Virus record (IMG/VR): IMGVR_UViG_3300031251_000978
Span: 1-45,817 of that record
Reading direction: 5' to 3' (one strand)
Length of the DNA stretch: 45,817 bases
Source of the DNA: a virus
Shown: piece by piece, positions 967 to 45,817 of the stretch
How the letters are laid out: every line of letters begins with the position of its first letter
How positions within the stretch are numbered: the stretch's first letter is position 1
Position numbers and translations under genes: made by a program
The notes under the pieces: model-generated
Seen by the model: only the letters and a program-made list of their open reading frames with translations
Database searches by the model: none
Told to the model about the DNA's origin: nothing

Positions 967-1791
967 ATGCCTGCGCAAACTCATCAATCGTCTCTCAACC
1001 TGATCTCGCACCACGTCGCAGACAGCATCATTCAACAGCGTGCTGAGGATGGCTATATCAACGCCACCGATCTGTGCAACGCAGCCGGCAAGCGCTGGTA
1101 CAACTATCTCCGAAACGAGACCACCGGTCATTTCCTTCGCGCGCTTTCTGCCAAAACTCAGATTAGCGTTCTGCTTTTAAATCAACAGGTTACGTCACCT
1201 CAAGGCACGCACAGCACCTGGGTTCACCCAAAGGTGGCTATCCATCTGGCCCAATGGCTGTCGGCCGACTTTGCTGTGCAGGTCTCCGAATGGATTTACG
1301 ACTGGATGTCAGGAGCCAGTCGTCCGAAGGAGCCGACGCTGCCTTACCATCTTCGGCGCCACATGCTGAACTTGGGCAAAATTCCGCCGACGCACTTCTC
1401 CATCCTGCAAGAGATGACAAACACGTTGATCGCCCCGCTCGAGGTGCGCGGATACACGCTTCCGGAGAGTCTCATGCCGGACATCTCACAGGGAAAGATG
1501 TTCTGCAAATTCCTGCGCGACGAGCTGAACATCGATACCGACTCACTGCCCACCTACGTGCACGAATTCGAAGATGGCCGCACAGTGGTCGCCAAGCTGT
1601 ACCCTATCGAAGTGCTCGTGGCCTTTCGAAACTATATCAACCAAGTGTGGATGCCTCAGAGGGCGGCCGGGTACTTCAAAGAGCGCGACCCATCGGCACT
1701 CCCCAAGCTCGACCAGCTTCTGATGATCACGCAGACCAGAGCTGCGAACGCCCCACGTCTCAACCCGCCGCAGCATCCCCGGGCTGCTTGA
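967..1791 (+). CDS. KilA-N domain protein, 274 aa
   Basis: The start is fixed by a strong ribosome site (GGAGGA) before ATG 967. Residues ~15-115 match the KilA-N DNA-binding fold: DGYINATDLCNAAGK, YLRN, then THSTWVHPKVAIHLAQWLS. The C-terminal ~150 residues (from LPYHLRRHML through GKMFCKFLRDEL to YFKERDP) form a second conserved-looking domain I cannot name. Known KilA-N proteins are phage regulators or antirepressors; the prophage abortive-infection protein BstA also carries a KilA-N-like domain, so an anti-phage role is possible but unproven. The gene stands alone on the plus strand beyond the lysis genes and is probably expressed separately, as a moron. Confidence 0.85.
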   Translation: MPAQTHQSSLNLISHHVADSIIQQRAEDGYINATDLCNAAGKRWYNYLRNETTGHFLRALSAKTQISVLLLNQQVTSPQGTHSTWVHPKVAIHLAQWLSADFAVQVSEWIYDWMSGASRPKEPTLPYHLRRHMLNLGKIPPTHFSILQEMTNTLIAPLEVRGYTLPESLMPDISQGKMFCKFLRDELNIDTDSLPTYVHEFEDGRTVVAKLYPIEVLVAFRNYINQVWMPQRAAGYFKERDPSALPKLDQLLMITQTRAANAPRLNPPQHPRAA

Positions 1792-23905: not shown

Positions 23906-24220
23906 TCAGGCCCTCACCGGCAGGATCGCCGATAGCGTCAGGATCAGCTGACTGTTGCTGGTCTGGCAGGTGACCTTGAACTCGTAGTTGACTCCGTCCA
24001 GTCCGCCACTCACGCCGACCAGCACCATCGAACCACCGGAGATGGAGAAGGCGCCAACCACCAGTGCAGGACCTGCATCCACACCGGCGCAGACGGCGAA
24101 CGTGGTCGAGACGATCGACGCCAGGGTCACGCCGTCAGGCAGCGCGTCCGTGAAGTCGAAGGTCAGCGGCACCGTCTCGGCCGGATCCTTGCAGGAGAAG
24201 AACTGGATGTCGCAGGTCAT
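23906..24220 (-). CDS. Beta-rich phage structural protein, 104 aa
   Basis: The pattern (FDFTDALPDGVTLASIVSTTFAVCAGVD, then NYEFKVTCQTSNSQLILTLSAILPVR) looks like a small Ig-like or BppU-type beta-sandwich of the kind seen in phage surface proteins. It is tightly coupled between the 831-aa repeat protein (ATGA overlap) and the terminase. Confidence 0.65.
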   Translation of the reverse strand: MTCDIQFFSCKDPAETVPLTFDFTDALPDGVTLASIVSTTFAVCAGVDAGPALVVGAFSISGGSMVLVGVSGGLDGVNYEFKVTCQTSNSQLILTLSAILPVRA

Positions 24221-26712
24221 TTTGTTGCCGTGAAATCCCGTTGATCCGCTGTCACGATGTAGTTACTGGCCTCAGCGTCGACCGTGAAGTCTCGAGACGA
24301 GGCCACTGCGGTCCAATTCGCCGAGGCACCCGATGCCCTGAAGTTCCGTGCGGTCGCTGTCACCAGATACCTAGGATCGGCGATCAATGACGACCCGATG
24401 AAGATGCCCGGAGCCAAGCCCGTCAGCCCGATCAATGCGGGCCCAGGGACCAGCCCAAGATTTGCCGACTGCACCAGACTGGGCGCGAACCCCGTCAATC
24501 CGAGCAGAGCCGTACCGGGTGCGACTGCCACGCCTGCTGTGCGGCTGATCGTCGGCGCCAGGCCGGTGATCGTCAGAGCCGCTTGCGCCGGTGCGACCGC
24601 GCGCGGCTGCAGCAGCGTGGGTGCGAAGCCCGCGATCACCATGCTCGCCGCGCTCGGCGTCACGCTCTGTGCCGCCGTCCTCGCCACGGTCGGCGCGTAT
24701 CCAGTCAGCGCCAATGCCACGGCGCCTGGAGTGACGACACTTGCAGCCGACTGGGTGATGACCGGCGCAAACCCGGTCAAGGTCAGCGCGTCGACACCAG
24801 GCTGCACGCTCTGCGTCTGGTCGATCGCCGGCGCAAAGCCGCTCAGAGCCAGAGCTATAGGGTCCGGAATGACCGTTATGCCGCTCGGGAGTGCCTGAGT
24901 GATCGACGGCGCGTAGCCGGTGAGCCCTAGAGACGCGGGTGCCGACGGTAAAACCGTCGCGTAGATAACCCCGAAGTACGCCGCTTGATTCGCCGATATG
25001 GCGAAGCGATTCGCGCTTTGCTCCGTCGTGTAGACGACGACTTCCGATATCCGACCGGCGTAGGGACGATCCAGCGTCCCCGCCGTGTTGTTGCAGCCGT
25101 TGCCGACAATCAAGCGGTGGTTGGCGGTGCCCGAGCTTTGGAAGCTACCGGTCGCCAACGAGCCCGCGACTGAGGTAAGTGTTCTGTTGCCCGACCCGTC
25201 AATCTGCGTCGTCAACTGGGAGTTGGTGACTGCAGAGCAGATCGCATTGCGCACACTAAGCGCAAGGTTGTTGTCCAGCGTCGTCAGCAGCTGGAAAGCC
25301 GTAGTCGGCGCCGTACCCCCGGCACCCGAGCCCATTGTTAGCCCGATATTGGTCGTGCGACGCTCAAAGACAAAGCCCGAACTAATGTCGTACTGCGCGC
25401 TCCTCTCAAGGACCGCCATGCCGCCTTGAGTCTGCGTGTTGTTCGCAATCTGATCGACCACGAACATGCTCACGGCGCGCGAGCTATTCAATCCGGCAAT
25501 GTTGTATCCGGTGGCCTCGGCATCGTCCGTCCCGTCAAACTGCGCGGTCGGCAAAGAATTCGACGTGACCAAAACCCCGGCGGCCACAATTTTTGGCTGC
25601 GTTGCCGTGGTCGGCGCGCTCTTGTCGTTGCCGTTCCCCGACTGGTCGTAGTCTGTGACCCGAAACCCGTCGCTAGCACCGCAAAACGTCAGCAGCGCGG
25701 CTGTATCGAGCGCGGCCGGTGAGCCGGTAAAACCCACATCCAGCGTTGCGTTGTCGCTGGACCGGCGTACCCGCAGGCAATACCCGGTGTAGCCCGAACG
25801 AAGCAACCGACTCGAATAGGCCGACGCCGCGCCGGGGTAGAGGTCCAACAGCAGCGGTGGCCCTCGGTACACCGTCGGCGCAAAGCCCGCGAGAACCAGT
25901 GCCTTGACGCCAGGAGCGACCACCTTCGGCTGCGCAAGGGTCGGCGCGAAGCCGGCGATGGCAAGCGCCTTCTGCGCTGGCGTGACTATCTTGGGCTGCG
26001 CGATCGTCGGGGCATAGCCCGCCACCGCCAGAGCAAGTTGCGCAGGCGTGATGACGACCGCAGCGCCCTCGGTGAACGTTACCAGGGAGCCGATTCCCTG
26101 CGATGCCGTTGTCCACGACCACGTAGCCGATTGCGCGCCGGCTGCGACCAGCTTGTAAGAGCAGTCGCCCGGGATGTAGACCCCCGAGGTGTTCGGGTCG
26201 TTGTAGATCGTCGTGTAGCCCGACGACACGCTCATGCTCGTGCCGTTGTAGCTGCCGTCCAGCATCATGCCGGCGGTCACAACCAGCGTTGCAGCGCTCG
26301 TGGCCGATGTCGGCCCCGCACCAAAGGTCGTTACGGCATTCGCACTGTTGCGCGCCGTGGGGCCGAGGACGAGTCCACCCGGCGCGCTGAACTCGGCGAT
26401 CGAGCATTCGCTGTAGGCGTCGCTCGCCACCCAATTGAAGGCACAAGACTCCGACCCGCCTGCGGTCGACTTCTTGTAGTAGATCGCGACGTTGATCGAA
26501 ACCGCGCCATTCAGGACGCTGATCGCCTGCGCCGCCACCGTCCAGCCCAAGGGCGTCGTCGGCGTGAAATTCGCGGTAAGACTGGATGCCGCGAAGCCGG
26601 TCGCGACGAGCCAATTCCCTGTCGTTACCCCGGTGATCGTGGGCGTGTTGGTCGGCGACCCGGACCCGCCAACTTGGGAGTTCGCGCCCTTCTGGACAAA
26701 GGCGATCGTCAC
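24217..26712 (-). CDS. 831-aa repeat-bearing tail/decoration protein with a lectin-like domain
   Basis: Residues 1-215 form a beta-rich domain (TGVTTGNWLVATGFAASS..., ECSIAEFSAPGGL). Three ~22-24-residue repeats of the form VxPxxxALxLxGFAPTL follow at ~219-283. A concanavalin/arabinofuranosidase-B-like domain spans ~288-583 (SGYTGYCLRVRRSSDNATLDVGF, RVTDYDQSGNGNDKSAP, FAISANQAAYFG). Eight more repeats lie at ~587-775, then a short C-terminal beta region. Repeats plus a lectin-like fold suggest a virion surface protein that binds host glycans. It lies upstream of the terminase genes, not next to the fibre gene. Confidence 0.75.
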   Translation of the reverse strand: MTIAFVQKGANSQVGGSGSPTNTPTITGVTTGNWLVATGFAASSLTANFTPTTPLGWTVAAQAISVLNGAVSINVAIYYKKSTAGGSESCAFNWVASDAYSECSIAEFSAPGGLVLGPTARNSANAVTTFGAGPTSATSAATLVVTAGMMLDGSYNGTSMSVSSGYTTIYNDPNTSGVYIPGDCSYKLVAAGAQSATWSWTTASQGIGSLVTFTEGAAVVITPAQLALAVAGYAPTIAQPKIVTPAQKALAIAGFAPTLAQPKVVAPGVKALVLAGFAPTVYRGPPLLLDLYPGAASAYSSRLLRSGYTGYCLRVRRSSDNATLDVGFTGSPAALDTAALLTFCGASDGFRVTDYDQSGNGNDKSAPTTATQPKIVAAGVLVTSNSLPTAQFDGTDDAEATGYNIAGLNSSRAVSMFVVDQIANNTQTQGGMAVLERSAQYDISSGFVFERRTTNIGLTMGSGAGGTAPTTAFQLLTTLDNNLALSVRNAICSAVTNSQLTTQIDGSGNRTLTSVAGSLATGSFQSSGTANHRLIVGNGCNNTAGTLDRPYAGRISEVVVYTTEQSANRFAISANQAAYFGVIYATVLPSAPASLGLTGYAPSITQALPSGITVIPDPIALALSGFAPAIDQTQSVQPGVDALTLTGFAPVITQSAASVVTPGAVALALTGYAPTVARTAAQSVTPSAASMVIAGFAPTLLQPRAVAPAQAALTITGLAPTISRTAGVAVAPGTALLGLTGFAPSLVQSANLGLVPGPALIGLTGLAPGIFIGSSLIADPRYLVTATARNFRASGASANWTAVASSRDFTVDAEASNYIVTADQRDFTATK
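24388..24954 (-). repeat. Eight tandem GFAP repeats (second block)
   Basis: Eight degenerate ~69-75-base repeats encode units with the core (A)LxLTGFAPTV followed by a polar linker and VxPG. The variation is at protein level, unlike the perfect repeats of the pentapeptide gene, which points to an old expansion under selection. Confidence 0.8.
25864..26058 (-). repeat. Three tandem GFAP repeats (first block)
   Basis: Three units with ALAVAGYAPTI, ALAIAGFAPTL and ALVLAGFAPTV cores and conserved IVTPAQ/VVAPGV linkers. They precede the lectin-like domain and match the eight-unit block on its other side. Confidence 0.8.
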
Positions 26713-36831: not shown

Positions 36832-37563
36832 ATGGCGCAGTTGAGTCTCCTCCCAGTCAACGTCACAGCAATCGTTCCGTCCGTCTCGGTCGGCCTCGAC
36901 GGCAAAGATCTGAAATGGGTTGCCCGCGGGGACGATGGGAACGACTACGCTATGAAGACGGTAGCCGATTCGGAGACGCTCCCGCTGAGCGAGTGGGTCT
37001 GCTACTCCATGTGGGGCGAATGCGGTCTTCCTGTCCCGGACTGCGCAGTTCTTGTGCGTAGATCAGATCCGCCCGCGTTCGGCTCGCGTATCGAACTGCA
37101 GTCCTATCAGTTGCCGAAAGGTCCCGCTTCGTTCTATACGATCGCACAGTACTTTCGCCCTCACCTCGCCGACCTTGGCCGCCTCTACCCGGCAGATGCC
37201 TTTCTTCCCAACAATGATCGGCACGGCAGGAATGTCATATTTCGGCAGCAACTCACGGGGACCACGATGGTCTCCATTGATTTCTCAAGGGCATGGCTTC
37301 AATCTGGACAGCCCTTTGGAGATATGAACTCATTGACTGGAAGCCATACTGCGAAGTGGTGGCATCACTTTCGGGACCTTATGAACGTCAAGGCGGACCA
37401 CGACGCACTCGACAAAATTCTCGCGCTGCCTGACGACTGGATGCTCAAGACAATCAGCCAAGCGCCCGCAGAGTGGTCAGCCAATATCAACCTTACAGCT
37501 GTTGACGATTTCTGGAGAAATCAGCGCCAAGCCCGTGCCACCAGTGCGAAAATGTGGCTATGA
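36832..37563 (+). CDS. HipA-like kinase in the rex position, 243 aa
   Basis: The fold signature is that of compact HipA_2-type kinases: nucleotide-binding Lys42 in DYAMKTV, Glu54 in the next helix, hinge-like IELQSYQLP, catalytic loop AFLPNNDRHGRN (Asp129, Asn134) and metal-binding Asp150 in VSIDFSRAW. All key residues are present, so it should be active. At 243 aa it is much shorter than HipA (~440) and lacks its N-subdomain. It is in one operon with the CI-like gene (3-base gap) and overlaps its partner by 4 bases. Likely expressed in the lysogen; a toxin or infection-triggered defence role is inferred. Confidence 0.7.
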   Translation: MAQLSLLPVNVTAIVPSVSVGLDGKDLKWVARGDDGNDYAMKTVADSETLPLSEWVCYSMWGECGLPVPDCAVLVRRSDPPAFGSRIELQSYQLPKGPASFYTIAQYFRPHLADLGRLYPADAFLPNNDRHGRNVIFRQQLTGTTMVSIDFSRAWLQSGQPFGDMNSLTGSHTAKWWHHFRDLMNVKADHDALDKILALPDDWMLKTISQAPAEWSANINLTAVDDFWRNQRQARATSAKMWL

Positions 37564-38904: not shown

Positions 38905-39053
38905 TGAACGCCATCTTCGGAAAGGCCGCGTCCGACCCGCGCGTGTACTTCGTCTGGTTCGTTGGAGAAGCGTTCTTCAAGAACATGTGCAGCGGCTGGC
39001 ATGCCGTTGTCGATGACTTTGGCAACTTGGTTGCCGTGCGGAGCTTCGCATGA
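38904..39053 (+). CDS. Small protein, 49 aa
   Basis: Start overlaps the upstream TAA; stop overlaps the next ATG. Product [29 protein letters not shown]...[19 protein letters not shown] is aromatic-rich with no obvious span. Coupling on both sides makes it a likely real gene of unknown function. Confidence 0.55.
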
Positions 39054-39211
39054 CCCCGCTTCGCTTCTCCCGCCGCATGTTCGACCAGCACCCTGGAGAT
39101 GCTCAGTACGCCTGCAGTGTCACGCGATTCAAGCGCCGCATGCCGGCGAGCGAAATCGCCCTCTACCTGATCGCGGCGGTTGCCGTGGTCGTCATCTATC
39201 TCACACGTTAG
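39050..39211 (+). CDS. Small C-terminally anchored membrane protein, 53 aa
   Basis: ATGA overlap with the gene before. A basic N-terminal half ([22 protein letters not shown]) precedes a single C-terminal span ([18 protein letters not shown]). Function unknown. Confidence 0.6.
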
Positions 39212-39219
39212 GAATCGTC

Positions 39220-40077
39220 ATGGCAAAGATCAAAATCGTCTCGCGCTACAACAGCGAAACCGTCCTCTTCGAGTGCGATGCGCCGGAGGGCCTCGATAGC
39301 GGGCTGCACATGCGGCATGCGCTGGAGCAGGCGACCGAGGCTCGCGCCAACCTGCGCGGCGCCAACCTGAGCGACGCCGACCTGAGCGACGCCAACCTGC
39401 GCGACGCCGACCTGCGCGACGCCAACCTGCGCGGCGCCAACCTGAGCGACGCCGACCTGAGCGACGCCAACCTGCGCGGCGCCTACCTGCGCGGCGCCAA
39501 CCTGAGCGACGCCAACCTGAGCGACGCCTACCTGCGCGGCGCCTACCTGCGCGACGCCAACCTGAGCGACGCCAACCTGAGCGACGCCAACCTGCGCGGC
39601 GCCGACCTGCGCGACGCCAACCTGAGCGGCGCCAACCTGAGCGACGCCAACCTGAGCGACGCCAACCTGAGCGACGCCTACCTGAGCGACGCCAACCTGC
39701 GCGGCGCCAACCTGAGCGGCGCCAACCTGAGCGACGCCAACCTGAGCGACGCCTACCTGCGCGACGCCTACCTGCGCGACTGTCCAGTCAAGATCGAGAA
39801 CATCCATCAGCGCATCTACGAAGCGGCGTCTGCCGAGGGCGCGCTCGATATGGGTTCGTGGCACTGCGGGACCACCCATTGCCGCGCCGGCTGGGTTGTC
39901 ACTCTCGCTGGCGAAGGCGGCAAGGCGCTCGAATTTGCGATGGGCACGCCTGCAGCCGCTGCGTTGATCTATCTGGCAAGCGACCCGAAACTGGAGCGCA
40001 TGCCGGACTTCTATTGCGGCAACGAACGGGCGCTGGCCGATATGAAGCGGTTGGCTGACGAAGCGGAGGCTGCATGA
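39220..40077 (+). CDS. Pentapeptide repeat protein with C-terminal phage domain, 285 aa
   Basis: ATG 39220 follows TTAGGAATC. After a 42-residue N-terminal part come 29 exact five-residue repeats A(N/D/Y)L(R/S)(G/D), forming a right-handed beta-helix of about seven turns. The ~95-residue C-terminus ([58 protein letters not shown]) is a domain seen with such repeats in phage proteins. Some pentapeptide proteins mimic DNA and inhibit gyrase (MfpA, Qnr); a DNA-mimic role is possible, though here the faces alternate Arg and Asp. Confidence 0.88.
39346..39780 (+). repeat. 29 perfect 15-bp tandem repeats (pentapeptide code)
   Basis: Every unit reads GCC-(A/G/T)AC-CTG-(C/A)GC-G(G/A)C. All differences fall on three of the 15 bases and all change the amino acid; there is no synonymous variation. 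This indicates very recent expansion or ongoing homogenisation by unequal recombination or slippage. Confidence 0.95.
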
Positions 40078-40202: not shown

Positions 40203-40447
40203 ACGACACCGCCGCCAGCCTACAGGTCGCCTATGACGTAGCTGTCGATCAGTTCGGCCCCGACTCCATCGAAGCACTCGACGCCGAGCGCGCCGCCCGT
40301 AACTTTTTCAAGGATCAGCAATGCAAGTCTACAAAGCAATCAACGCCGTCCAGTCTGCTCTCGCCTCTGTCGGCATCAGCAAGGATTCCCGCAACGCGCA
40401 GCAGGGCTACAACTTCCGCGGGATCGATCAGGTCTACAACACGCTGA
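40199..40447 (+). CDS. Small ORF overlapping the ERF gene, 82 aa (3' end uncertain)
   Basis: GTG 40199 overlaps the upstream stop. The first ~41 residues ([19 protein letters not shown], then IEALDAERAARNFFKDQQ) look real. After that the frame runs 127 bases into the ERF gene and reads as Ser/Thr-rich shadow sequence. It probably once ended at the ERF start and lost its stop. Confidence 0.45.
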   Translation: MNDTAASLQVAYDVAVDQFGPDSIEALDAERAARNFFKDQQCKSTKQSTPSSLLSPLSASARIPATRSRATTSAGSIRSTTR

Positions 40448-40971
40448 GCCCGCTGCTCGCAAAGCATGGCTTGTGCATCCTGCCCAGGGTGCTGGCTCGC
40501 ACCGTCGCCGAGCATCCGTCCAAGAATGGCGGCGTCTTGTTCTACGTGACCGTCGAAGTCGAGTTCGATTTCGTCTGCGCGGAGGACGGCTCCAAGCATG
40601 TGGTGAAGACTTTCGGCGAGGCGATGGACAGCGGCGACAAGGCCACCAACAAGGCCATGTCAGCAGCCTATAAGTACGCTGCCATGCAGGCGTTCGCCAT
40701 CCCAACTGAGGGCGACAACGACGCCGACGCCACGACGCACGAGGTTGAACGACGCGGCCAAGCGGAATTGCGCGCAGCGTGGTTGAAGACCCAGTTCGGG
40801 CGGATCGACGCGGCCAAGAGTTCGGGCGAGATGAAGGGCGCCTTGAACGACGCGCTTGCCATCGCGGCCAACGAAGCCGACCAAGACGCAATCGACCAGC
40901 TCAAGGCTCACGCCCGGGCCAAGGTCGAGCGCGCCGCAGCAGCCAAGGCAAAGCAGCCCGAAGCCGCCTGA
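40321..40971 (+). CDS. ERF family single-strand annealing recombinase, 216 aa
   Basis: MQVYKAINAVQSALASVGISKDSRNAQQGYNFRGIDQVYNTLSPLLAKHGL is the classic ERF N-terminus; GEAMDSGDKATNKAMSAAYKYAAMQAFAIPTE is the conserved core. A Lys/Ala-rich tail follows. ERF proteins anneal DNA strands and circularise or recombine phage genomes. AAGGATCAGCA precedes the ATG. No exonuclease partner is evident nearby. Confidence 0.93.
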   Translation: MQVYKAINAVQSALASVGISKDSRNAQQGYNFRGIDQVYNTLSPLLAKHGLCILPRVLARTVAEHPSKNGGVLFYVTVEVEFDFVCAEDGSKHVVKTFGEAMDSGDKATNKAMSAAYKYAAMQAFAIPTEGDNDADATTHEVERRGQAELRAAWLKTQFGRIDAAKSSGEMKGALNDALAIAANEADQDAIDQLKAHARAKVERAAAAKAKQPEAA

Positions 40972-41135
40972 TGCCGCAACGCGATTACCGGGCTTACGCC
41001 ATTTCCCCTGCTGGTAAAGCCGCAAGGGCTCGCGCACATGCCCGGTACGTCGCCAAGCGCCGCGAACAGAACGCTCGAACCCGATTCAACCCTGCGCCTC
41101 TCGCGCAAGCAATGACCAACTGGAGAACCGCATGA
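40971..41135 (+). CDS. Small basic protein, 54 aa
   Basis: ATG overlaps the ERF stop and its own stop overlaps the Gp157 start. Very Arg/Ala-rich (KAARARAHARYVAKRREQNARTRFN), probably nucleic-acid binding. Placed between ERF and Gp157 in a coupled chain. Confidence 0.6.
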   Translation: MPQRDYRAYAISPAGKAARARAHARYVAKRREQNARTRFNPAPLAQAMTNWRTA

Positions 41136-41629
41136 CCGCCCTCTACGAATTAGCCGCCACCTTCCGCGCCGAAGCCGCCAAGCTTGCCGAACTGGACCTT
41201 GACGACCAGACGTTGCTCGACACCCTGGAGGGCATGTCTGGCGACCTCGAAGTCAAGGCGCAGAACGTCGTGATGTTCGCCCGAAACCTTGAGGCATCCG
41301 CCGTCGCCATCAAGGAAGCCGAGGCACAGATGGCTGCGCGCCGGAAGGCAATCGAGAACCGCGCGGCCGGCCTTCGTAAGTACGTGCAGACCTCGATGCA
41401 GGTTGCTGGCGTGACCAAGATCGAATGCCCGTACTTCGCGCTGAAGCTCCAGAACAACCCGCCGAGCGTGGATGTGTTCGAGCCGGGTCTGATCCCGCTG
41501 GAGTTCATGACCCAGCCGAAGCCGCCGGAGCCGGCGCCGAACAAGACCGCGATCGCAGCGGAGCTGAAGGCAGGCCACGAGGTGCCTGGCGCGCGGCTCG
41601 TGCAGTCGCAGAGGCTGGTGGTCGCCTGA
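41132..41629 (+). CDS. Siphovirus Gp157 family protein, 165 aa
   Basis: LYELAATFRAEAAKLAELDLDDQTLLDTLEGMSGDLEVKAQNVVMFARNLEASA and the coiled-coil/KKIECPYFALKLQNNPPSVDV-like region identify Gp157. The family accompanies phage recombination genes, and in some phages was linked to resistance. Its place after ERF fits. Confidence 0.88.
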   Translation: MTALYELAATFRAEAAKLAELDLDDQTLLDTLEGMSGDLEVKAQNVVMFARNLEASAVAIKEAEAQMAARRKAIENRAAGLRKYVQTSMQVAGVTKIECPYFALKLQNNPPSVDVFEPGLIPLEFMTQPKPPEPAPNKTAIAAELKAGHEVPGARLVQSQRLVVA

Positions 41630-41880
41630 TGGAGCCCACCCACATCGGCTTCCGGGTGCTCGCCTCGCCGGCCCAGCCCGGGTTCGACGACGAGGTCGAG
41701 AACTTCGAGATCCGCCAGGCGGCGATCGACTGCGCCCAGCTGCTGGACTCGAAGGGCTGGAAGAACGTGCGCTGCGTCGAAGTCAACAGCCGGCCGCCCC
41801 GCTACCCGGGAGAGTGCTTTGGCGACGCAATCGAGGAGTTCACGGACATCGAGTGGCAGTGCCATCAGATCGGCGCCTAG
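41629..41880 (+). CDS. Hypothetical phage protein, 83 aa
   Basis: ATG overlaps the Gp157 stop. Contains QAAIDCAQLLDSKGWKNVRCVEVNSRPP and ends EFTDIEWQCHQIGA. Mixed alpha/beta; no family recognised. Codon use is like its neighbours. Confidence 0.6.
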   Translation: MEPTHIGFRVLASPAQPGFDDEVENFEIRQAAIDCAQLLDSKGWKNVRCVEVNSRPPRYPGECFGDAIEEFTDIEWQCHQIGA

Positions 41881-41905
41881 TCCCTCCCACTAAAGGAAGA
41901 ATGAA

Positions 41906-42145
41906 ATGAGCACAGAGGAACGAGTCTTTGAACTCATCCGGCAACAGGCTGGCATCGAAGGAGCCATGTCTGCCGATCAATCGTTTTCCGCTGACTACGG
42001 TTTCGATTTGCTGGACAACGTCGAGATGCTGATGGCAATCGAGGACGAATTCGGCATCGAGATTTCCGCCTGGGCGGCCCAGGAAATCGGGACAGTCGCA
42101 GAAGCTATCGCCCTCGTTGACCGACTGGTTGGTGAGCAAGCATGA
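41906..42145 (+). CDS. Acyl-carrier-protein-like protein without the carrier serine, 79 aa
   Basis: The whole sequence aligns with bacterial ACP (MSTEERVFELIRQQAGIE..., YGFDLLDNVEMLMAIEDEFGIEI). The pantetheine-bearing Ser of the DSL motif (Ser36 in E. coli ACP) is Leu here (DLL). So it should fold as ACP but not carry an acyl chain. It may bind host ACP partners as a decoy or act as an adaptor. GGAAGAATGAA gives a good ribosome site. Confidence 0.8.
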   Translation: MSTEERVFELIRQQAGIEGAMSADQSFSADYGFDLLDNVEMLMAIEDEFGIEISAWAAQEIGTVAEAIALVDRLVGEQA

Positions 42146-43185
42146 CACCCCAAGCCGCGCAAAAAGAGAGGGAAGCCGTGAGCGACGACCAGCTGCGCGA
42201 TCTCGCTGATGACTTCAAATCGCACATCCTGCACGCTGGCGTGCGGCACGATGAGTTCGACTACATGGGATTCGCCCGTGCTGTCCTTTCTCTCGCCACC
42301 AAGCAAGCAGACAAGCCTGTAGGAGCGGAGGCGAAGGAGCTTCAGGTGACCGCCTGCTACTTCCCCAAAACAGGCGACGCGGAGCTTTCGTGGGAGCGCA
42401 ACGGCAAGTCGCTTTCCATGACAGTGCCGGTGACGCCCGAGCAAGGGAGAGCACTGGCGGACATCGTGTGGCCTTGCGTGTTCTGGCCTGCTGTCGCCCA
42501 TCCTCCCACCCCAGTAGTGGCCCGCGACTGGACGGCGATCGAAGCGGCGATTCATGCCTACGTCGAAGACTACGAGATGGTCGGCGAGGACGAGGAGGGC
42601 CGCGACGGTTGCTACACGCCCACCGAGACGGAGCGCGACATCATCACCGATGCTGTGATGGGGCTGCTGGCCGACACCGACTTCGTTGCAGCCTATGACC
42701 GTGTTGCCGCCACCCCGGCAGAGCCGGTAGGCGAGCCGCTGACGGATGACGTGTGGCCCGACTACATCGCCGGACTGATTGAAACGTACCTCAAAGGCGA
42801 CCCCGCACCGGACAAGCGAAAAGGCGCCATCGCAGGAATCATCCGTCGCCGGATGTACCTCGCCACCCCACCCTCCCCAGCACTGCGCGACGTACGATGC
42901 AAAGGCGATCCGGGTGAGTGCGACTTCAACGGCGCGTGCATGTATGGCTGTGGACGCGTGCTGGCCGACCAAGCCTTGCTGGAAGGATTGAGTCGGCATA
43001 TTCCCCAGGTGTTGGAAGAACTGCAATTCGAGCGCGGGACCAACTCCCTCGCTGCATACAACCTGCGTCTGTGCATGATCGAGGTTAAGAAGGCACTGGA
43101 AGGTAAGCGAACTCCGGCGAACCCAAGAGCAGAGTTGGCCGTTGGTGACGTGCTGGCCGAGCGCAAGAGGCAGGATGCGAAATGA
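42142..43185 (+). CDS. Mosaic hypothetical phage protein, 347 aa
   Basis: ATGA overlap with the ACP-like gene. The N-terminal part (DDQLRDLADDFKSHILHAGV, DYMGFARAVLSLATKQ) resembles phage proteins starting with a short HTH-like segment. The middle has a Cys cluster (CKGDPGECDFNGACMYGCGR) that may bind metal. The C-terminus DVLAERKRQDAK looks like the first residues of a longer domain that is missing, so this is probably a recombination mosaic. Confidence 0.6.
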   Translation: MTPQAAQKEREAVSDDQLRDLADDFKSHILHAGVRHDEFDYMGFARAVLSLATKQADKPVGAEAKELQVTACYFPKTGDAELSWERNGKSLSMTVPVTPEQGRALADIVWPCVFWPAVAHPPTPVVARDWTAIEAAIHAYVEDYEMVGEDEEGRDGCYTPTETERDIITDAVMGLLADTDFVAAYDRVAATPAEPVGEPLTDDVWPDYIAGLIETYLKGDPAPDKRKGAIAGIIRRRMYLATPPSPALRDVRCKGDPGECDFNGACMYGCGRVLADQALLEGLSRHIPQVLEELQFERGTNSLAAYNLRLCMIEVKKALEGKRTPANPRAELAVGDVLAERKRQDAK

Positions 43186-43418
43186 GCCTTTCTTCGCATC
43201 AAAGCGCCCGCATGAAAAACGATGAGTGGTTGACGCCGCCGGAAATCGTGAAAGCGCTCGGACCCTTCTGCCTCGATCCGTGCTCCCCAGTGGCTCGCCC
43301 GTGGGAAACAGCAGCGAACCACTACACGATGCATGACGACGGACTGTCGAAGCCTTGGGAGGGCAGAGTCTGGCTCAACCCTCCATTTGGCCGAGAAGCA
43401 GTTAATTGGAGGTGGGGA
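43182..43418 (+). pseudogene. 5' fragment of a phage N6-adenine methyltransferase
   Basis: DEWLTPPEIVKALGPFCLDPCSPV, NHYTMHDDGLSKPWEGRVWLNPPFGRE matches the beginning of phage Dam-type methyltransferases (DNA_N-6-adenine family) including the catalytic NPPF motif. It then stops matching and continues in frame into the next gene. The C-terminal two-thirds of the enzyme is absent, so no methylation is expected. Confidence 0.75.
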
Positions 43419-43703
43419 ATGAGCGATGTGAAGCTGCCGGATCCAAAGTACATCTATCACGACGATGGCGAGAGCGATGACCTATTCGAGTTCGCCACGT
43501 CTGGCGCTGTAGACGAACGCTGCGCGAAATGCGAGCGCTTGTACACGCAAGAGATGATGCTCGCCTTCCGCGCTGAAGGTGTAGCCCAGGCGCTGGAGAG
43601 CCTGAAGTTCCACCCGAGTGCATCGCAAGTGCATCCAGACTATCGGGACTGGTTCAACAAGACCATCGATGCGGCTATCCAGGGAGGCAACCATGGCGCA
43701 TGA
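43419..43703 (+). CDS. Small phage protein with CxxC, 94 aa
   Basis: ATG 43419 follows an unusually strong site (TTGGAGGTGGGGA) lying inside the methyltransferase fragment. Product MSDVKLPDPKYIYHDDGESDDLF, then DERCAKCERLYTQEMMLAFRAEG. It could also be translated as the tail of the methyltransferase fusion. Function unknown. Confidence 0.6.
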   Translation: MSDVKLPDPKYIYHDDGESDDLFEFATSGAVDERCAKCERLYTQEMMLAFRAEGVAQALESLKFHPSASQVHPDYRDWFNKTIDAAIQGGNHGA

Positions 43704-44504: not shown

Positions 44505-44686
44505 GCGAAGCAGAAGATCGCGTAATCTACCGTGCCGACCTGTGCAAGAAACTTGGCGTCGGCAGCGAGGCGATGCGCCGCTGGCTCAAGGCCGGCAAGC
44601 TGCCAAAGCCAGACGTGGACATCAGCCAGAAGACTCGCGGCTGGAAGCTATCCACCCTGCGCGCTGCCGGGATCAACCTTGTCTAG
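44501..44686 (+). CDS. AlpA/MerR-type HTH protein, likely excisionase, 61 aa
   Basis: VIYRADLCKKLGVGSEAMRRWLKAGKLPKPDVDISQKTRGWKLSTLRA is the AlpA/excisionase-type winged HTH. It is next to, and convergent with, the integrase; their 3' ends overlap by 39 bases. As the last gene of the repressible rightward operon it would be expressed on induction, as expected for a recombination directionality factor. Confidence 0.8.
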   Translation: MSEAEDRVIYRADLCKKLGVGSEAMRRWLKAGKLPKPDVDISQKTRGWKLSTLRAAGINLV

Positions 44687-45817
44687 CCAGTCGGCCCAGG
44701 CCTGGAGCATGGGCTTGCGCTCCCGCATGTACTCGGCGCGGTTGTATGCAGAGCGCACCTTGTCCTCTGGTGAGTGCGCGAGCTGCCGCTCGATGGCGTC
44801 CTTGCCATACCCTTCCTCGTTCGCCCAAGTCGAGGCGACGGTGCGCCAGCCATGACCCGTCATCTCGCCCTTGTAGCCCATGCGCGCCATCAAGGCGAGC
44901 ACGGTGTTCTCGCTGATAGGCCGATCCAGCCGGTGGTCAGCAGCGAACACGTATTCGCTTCCGCGCTGGCGGGCTCGCATCTTGTCGAGGATTTCGAGAG
45001 CCTGTCGGGAGAGCGGAACCATGTGGTCCTTCCGGCCCTTCATCCGATCGTCCTGAATGCGCCATACGTCGCCATCGAGCTCGCCCCATGTCATGAAGCG
45101 CATCTCGTTGGTGCGGACCCATGTGTAGGCCAAGAAGCGGCAGGCCAGCACCGAGCTCAAGTCCTTTTCGAACGACAGCCGCTCAAGGAGATCATGAACG
45201 TCCGTCAGGCGCACGGCGGCATGATGCTTGACCTTCGAGCGCCCGAACGCCGTCTTCGAGTCGATCAGGGCGGCCGGGTTGAGCTCGGCGAATTTCTGCT
45301 CGACCGCCCAGTTGAAGACCTGCGAGCTCCACATCTTCACCTTGCGGACGTAGTTGTAGTGGCCGGCCGCATTCATGCGGTTGAGCTCATCCAGCAGCAG
45401 GCCGCGGTCGATTGCTGCCGTTGCCTTGGCGCCGAGGTTCGGCACAAGGTGGAGCTCGATTCCTCGCAGGGCATTCGTCCGGTATGCGTCGGCAACGTCC
45501 TTGCGGCCATTCCAGTAGGTCTGGCAGTCCTCCCAGAACGTGGTCTTCGGCTTCGCCTTGGCCTTCGGAGAAATGCCGTCAAGAAGCCCCTTGCGGAGCT
45601 CGTCGCGCTTGATCCGGGCTTCGGCCAGGCTCAGCAGTGGGTAGGGACCGAGGGACTTGGTTTGCGGCTTTCCATCGACACGGTAGGCTACTCGCCAGAC
45701 CTTCGCGCCGGTCGGGCTGATGTAGAGAAACATGCCGTGCCCGTCGAACAGTTTGCGCGCCTTGTCGGCAGGCTTGGCGGTACGACACTGGTGATCGGAA
45801 AGCGTGTTTGTAGGCAT
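44648..45817 (-). CDS. int: P4-type tyrosine integrase, 389 aa
   Basis: N-terminal DUF4102 domain (LFDGHGMFLYISPTGAKVWRVAYR), core-binding domain ~95-195, and catalytic domain with Arg in TWVRTNEMRF, HGWR (His-x-x-Arg), the QLAHSPED His and the nucleophile Tyr in AYNRAEYMRER. Length is normal. The window ends at its ATG, so promoter and attachment site lie just outside. P4-type integrases usually use tRNA genes, which cannot be seen here. Confidence 0.93.
   Translation of the reverse strand: MPTNTLSDHQCRTAKPADKARKLFDGHGMFLYISPTGAKVWRVAYRVDGKPQTKSLGPYPLLSLAEARIKRDELRKGLLDGISPKAKAKPKTTFWEDCQTYWNGRKDVADAYRTNALRGIELHLVPNLGAKATAAIDRGLLLDELNRMNAAGHYNYVRKVKMWSSQVFNWAVEQKFAELNPAALIDSKTAFGRSKVKHHAAVRLTDVHDLLERLSFEKDLSSVLACRFLAYTWVRTNEMRFMTWGELDGDVWRIQDDRMKGRKDHMVPLSRQALEILDKMRARQRGSEYVFAADHRLDRPISENTVLALMARMGYKGEMTGHGWRTVASTWANEEGYGKDAIERQLAHSPEDKVRSAYNRAEYMRERKPMLQAWADWLDKVDPGSAQGG

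Follow-up and report, generated by a model that had tools for sequence, protein, structure and literature searches.

Acyl carrier protein (ACP) genes are widespread in phages, and annotations commonly present them as auxiliary metabolic genes that serve lipid synthesis. The gene at positions 41906..42145 (+ strand) of a 45,817-nucleotide virus contig (IMG/VR record IMGVR_UViG_3300031251_000978; this whole stretch is called the window here) raises the question of what an ACP-like protein does for a phage when the serine that carries the 4'-phosphopantetheine arm is a leucine. The family is already known, and the window protein is an unusual phage variant of it. We lean toward the reading that an intact ACP-fold phage protein without the attachment site works as an uncharged protein-binding module and not as a carrier.

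Family membership and fold

An earlier note on this DNA had proposed ACP homology along the full length of the product, and the database matches bear this out. The 79-residue protein matches Pfam PF00550 (PP-binding) at 37.8 bits, against a curated cut-off of 20.8 (E = 2.3e-9), and phrog_5934, 'acyl carrier protein', over residues 3-78 (E = 2.6e-14). Its best PDB match is Aquifex ACP (E = 1.1e-11, residues 2-76), and it is roughly 30-51% identical over its length to bacterial and phage ACPs. These sequence comparisons make the window protein a genuine member of the ACP family, with similarity far above chance.

An AlphaFold2 model built on a 28-sequence alignment (pLDDT 91.3, pTM 0.78) has helices at residues 3-15, 35-49, 55-60, and 64-78, and the four-helix ACP fold is predicted with high confidence. 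The top PDB matches of this predicted structure in Foldseek are all ACPs; E. coli ACP (4etw_B) superimposes with TM scores of 0.88/0.93 and an rmsd of 1.0 Å. The prediction and these matches speak against the lack of an ACP fold, which the earlier note had named as grounds for dropping its proposal.

Compared with bacterial AcpP and the TIGR00517 family (E. coli AcpP, Aquifex ACP), the window protein has the same fold and length, a pI of 4.05, and an acidic helix-II face, and it is 43-45% identical. It differs in lacking Ser36 and the acids of helix III, in lying outside a fab operon, and in scoring 59.5 bits against TIGR00517, under the equivalog cut-off of 70.45. It is closer in setting to the phage ACPs of PHROG 5934 (category moron, auxiliary metabolic gene and host takeover), whose profile it matches and whose size and phage context it shares. 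However, 12 of the 14 named-phage members examined keep the serine, and the family entry is silent on serine loss.

The serine site

The DSL phosphopantetheine serine (E. coli S36) aligns with Leu35 in the segment GFDLLDNVEM of the window protein. The alignments and the model agree in placing codon 35 (TTG, Leu; 42008..42010, + strand) at the ACP Ser36 position, where predicted helix II (35-49) begins. The replacement of this serine by leucine, claimed when the sequence was first read, is confirmed, and the DSL serine by which a functional carrier is recognized is missing. Residues 29-53 contain no Ser or Thr, so there is no shifted substitute for it. Because leucine replaces the serine and helix II holds no Ser or Thr, charging is not expected; judging from the biochemistry of the family, attachment of 4'-phosphopantetheine should be impossible.

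It is very improbable that the window protein is charged elsewhere or by other chemistry and is a carrier still. In favour of this, the AcpS-facing residues of helix II are retained, and the loop preceding that helix contains Ser26 and Ser28. Against it, helix II has no Ser or Thr where it starts or close by, the only modification known is the one at the DSL serine, and a domain scan of the window detected no AcpS-family or phosphopantetheinyl transferase domain. In E. coli, ACP(S36T) stays unmodified and does not function in lipid synthesis (PMC3340395).

Around the lost serine, D34, D37, V39, E40, M43, E46, D47, and I53 are retained, corresponding to E. coli D35, D38, V40, E41, M44, E47, E48, and I54. 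We take these helix-II residues to serve partner recognition in E. coli ACP. In helix III, by contrast, the window protein has A, W, A, and Q in place of the E. coli ACP acids D56, E57, E58, and E60, which makes docking on all ACP partners unlikely. The window protein is also one residue shorter before helix II than a standard ACP.

Nearest relatives

The two closest homologues, L245 (50% identical) and L026 (51%), both keep the serine; the latter also lies near an ERF gene, as the window gene does. No close relative of the window protein was found in IMG/VR, GTDB contigs, phage and plasmid records, or 369 genomes of the class to which a Caballeronia genome belongs; these searches matched only ACPs, none of them more than 51% identical. 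The available sequences of phages related to that of the window through Gp157 (L010-L021) contain no ACP gene.

The retention of the serine in these relatives bears on the main rival to our reading, namely that the gene encodes a normal phage ACP, like L245 and L026, in which codon 35 shows one T/C change, either as a recent loss in one genome or as an assembly or sequencing error. Leu TTG and Ser TCG are one transition apart, and only one virus contig underlies the record. With serine in the nearest homologues, such a local mutation or base error has to be weighed seriously, although we think it rather unlikely. The window protein is changed elsewhere too, in the helix-III acids and in the length before helix II, which one error in a standard ACP would not explain. 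In addition, Leu, Phe, Asp, or Glu occupies the same site in other phages. The suspicion voiced in the earlier note, that homologues retaining Ser would point to local mutation, holds for the nearest relatives but not more widely, because serine-less forms recur in unrelated phages; for the same reason the window case is no isolated oddity.

Serine-less ACP-like proteins in other phages

The recurrence was surveyed by a motif scan of IMG/VR with the frame D-x-L-D-x-[VI]-E, followed further on by [ML] and E-[ED], in which the residue x at the serine site alone was varied. Leu or Phe at x was found in two stretches, L117 (Leu) and L118 (Phe), and Asp or Glu in 49, of which 46 have an ACP HMM match (several of them weak or partial) and three do not; Ser at x (codons WSN) was found in at least 120. 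Because the motifs already demand most of the helix-II acids, conservation of these acids in the survey is partly circular, and we did not use it as evidence. No serine-less motif was found in 369 genomes of the Caballeronia class, but 24 of 36 of these genomes contained the Ser motif.

After near-copies had been removed at 70% identity and short pieces dropped (ten short Asp/Glu stretches among them), 21 clear, distinct serine-less sequences were left, the window protein included: 12 with Glu, six with Asp, two with Leu, and one with Phe. In a tree of 149 ACPs, made up of these 21 and 128 Ser rows with host ACPs among them, the serine-less rows are scattered, requiring 20 changes against a shuffled mean of 20 on a poorly resolved tree. 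This scatter is compatible with repeated loss of the serine but is no proof of it; the proteins are too short for the tree to be resolved, and the losses are therefore not countable.

One pairing is better supported. L117 (IMGVR_UViG_3300002307_000177; GGDLLDIIELVM), the sole other case of Leu for Ser that we found, groups with L132, an Asp version (SH-aLRT 94). As Leu and Asp interchange in this pair with Ser absent, the serine is dispensable there. L117 differs from the window protein in several respects: the two are 31% identical, its tree partner is the Asp version, and it adjoins a MazG gene rather than an ERF gene. L250 carries Ser at the site.

Isolated phages provide further examples. 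The two of 14 named-phage proteins without Ser belong to Serratia phage phiMAM1 (YP_007349071.1, annotated 'acyl carrier protein'), with Glu at the site, and to Pseudomonas phage Lu11 (gp353, hypothetical), with Asp. They resemble the window protein as ACP-like proteins with the site residue replaced but differ in having an acidic residue instead of Leu, and the phages that encode them are far bigger, at 158 and 281 kb, respectively. The phiMAM1, Lu11, L117, L118, L031, and L026 proteins also match phrog_5934. As a separate observation, Glu or Asp sits exactly at the phosphopantetheine serine in L031 (4001-4231), L052 (4016-4237), L105 (1959-2231), and L115 (1809-2231), the annotated phiMAM1 ACP included, and labels that call these proteins carriers are doubtful.

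A Pfam scan of 69 neighbours of serine-less genes returned families of ssDNA-binding protein, primase, thymidylate synthase, MazG, nucleotide kinase, and nuclease; no fatty-acid-synthesis family appeared among 25 of the 33 families. One neighbour in L052 is a Pam3 gp33-like DUF7307 protein. No gene order is common to the serine-less loci.

Genome setting

The ACP-like open reading frame (41906-42145, +) starts with ATG and runs for 79 codons without an internal stop. A likely ribosome-binding site, AAGGAAG, precedes it (41894..41900, +), and its stop overlaps the start of the next gene by four bases (ATGA). A 102-residue open reading frame across it on the minus strand (41840-42148) was taken as a shadow ORF. 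The gene belongs to a plus-strand cluster that begins with an ERF-family ssDNA-annealing recombinase (40321..40971; PF04404, 1e-23; phrog_155) and a Gp157-family protein (41132..41629; Sipho_Gp157, PF05565, 1e-45; phrog_253, with the PHROG label 'Mu Gam-like end protection'). A small ORF without a family match, whose ATG overlaps the Gp157 stop (41629..41880), comes between Gp157 and the ACP-like gene. Downstream are a 347-residue protein without a family match, the overlapping gene (42142..43185), and a short Dam-like DNA adenine methyltransferase (43182..43703; PF05869, 1.9e-7; phrog_111, 3e-20). No lipid enzyme was found among the window genes scanned or beside the ACP-like gene.

The window (62% GC) represents a contractile-tailed phage whose minus strand encodes baseplate, sheath, portal, and terminase proteins. 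Its right end carries a tyrosine integrase gene (44648..45817, -; PF00589, phrog_1), which indicates that the phage is temperate. The integrase shares 72% identity with its counterpart in Variovorax phage VarioGold and is the one hint that the host may belong to the Burkholderiales. Third-position GC is 0.62 in the ACP-like gene versus 0.82 in the ERF gene and 0.85 in the Gp157 gene, as for a gene that may have arrived later in the cluster.

Such an arrival is also what might be seen if the gene were a decaying moron, a once-useful carrier gene drifting without function, and the loss of the serine and of the helix-III acids and the lack of lipid enzymes nearby would agree with this. The gene nevertheless has an open frame, a ribosome-binding site, and an overlapping downstream gene, and its product keeps the core residues and a full-length predicted fold. 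Phages also tend to delete useless DNA. We consider decay improbable on these grounds.

A possible role without the arm

The points that we count for an uncharged protein-binding module are the ACP family membership and fold, the keeping of helix-II residues with loss of the serine, the signals of an intact gene (open frame, ribosome-binding site, and overlap), and the recurrence of serine-less forms. To these may be added the difference between the serine-less and Ser motifs in bacterial genomes, the DNA-metabolism genes beside serine-less genes, and the absence of an AcpS-family domain from the window. The serine in the nearest homologues and the lost helix-III acids count against it.

If the window protein is such a module, its acidic helix-II face would most likely dock on a protein that recognizes the ACP surface. 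Candidates are an ACP-binding protein of the host for which the arm is unnecessary or a replication or recombination protein of the phage, and on that partner the window protein could act as a competitor or an adaptor. Fatty acid synthases, SpoT, and MukB, which the earlier note had suggested as targets of a decoy, would be met by a protein with the helix-II face intact but without the helix-III acids. The ATPase of MukB offers a precedent for a role independent of the arm: it is stimulated as well by apo-AcpP as by holo-AcpP (PMC8602292), so that MukB could feasibly respond to an ACP ligand that is uncharged.

More broadly, and more tentatively, phages may repeatedly have made ACP into an arm-less 'pseudo-ACP', mostly with Asp or Glu and rarely with Leu or Phe at the site, that binds host or phage proteins of DNA metabolism in the course of infection. 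The window protein would then be a hydrophobic-site member of an unnamed class, an idea that we hold at somewhat short of even odds.

Phage ACPs have been described, with the remark that 'their function remains unclear' (PMC5463345). Proteomics of Sajous1, a Vi01-like phage, recovered gp186, a 'putative acyl carrier protein' (PMC10892097), and at least one gene annotated as a phage ACP is thus expressed. Our literature search, which missed most subscription journals, found no description of serine-less phage ACPs. Hypermodified-base pathways were considered as an explanation of phage ACPs and set aside, as what the paper on SP-15 names is an acyl carrier protein reductase and not an ACP.

If many phage ACPs lack the key residue, the lipid label is wrong for those proteins, and the ACP fold would be a protein-binding tool in infection. 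The non-metabolic ACP partners of bacteria (MukBEF, SpoT, and iron-sulphur assembly) would then be natural candidates for phage targets. A missing serine can be read from the sequence, and annotation can therefore be corrected at once.

Other genes in the window

Several other genes of the window deserve mention. Directly upstream of the ERF gene, on the strand of the recombination cluster, a gene at 38962-40077 (+) encodes a protein that consists mostly of pentapeptide repeats (A[ND]L[RS][GD]; repeats at about 39300-39850), and a long ORF of repeats also appears on the minus strand as its mirror reading. In the same region, the product of 36832-37563 (+) has a HipA-like kinase domain (PF20613, E = 4e-6, just under the cut-off) and is a possible persistence or exclusion gene. 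A KilA-N domain protein encoded at 967-1791 (+) matches the BstA abortive-infection family (phrog_6287, E = 7.9e-54) and may be an anti-phage gene of the prophage. Beside the terminase genes, an 831-residue protein (24217-26712, -) contains an arabinofuranosidase-type catalytic domain (PF09206, E = 7e-8), which suggests a possible part in sugar degradation.
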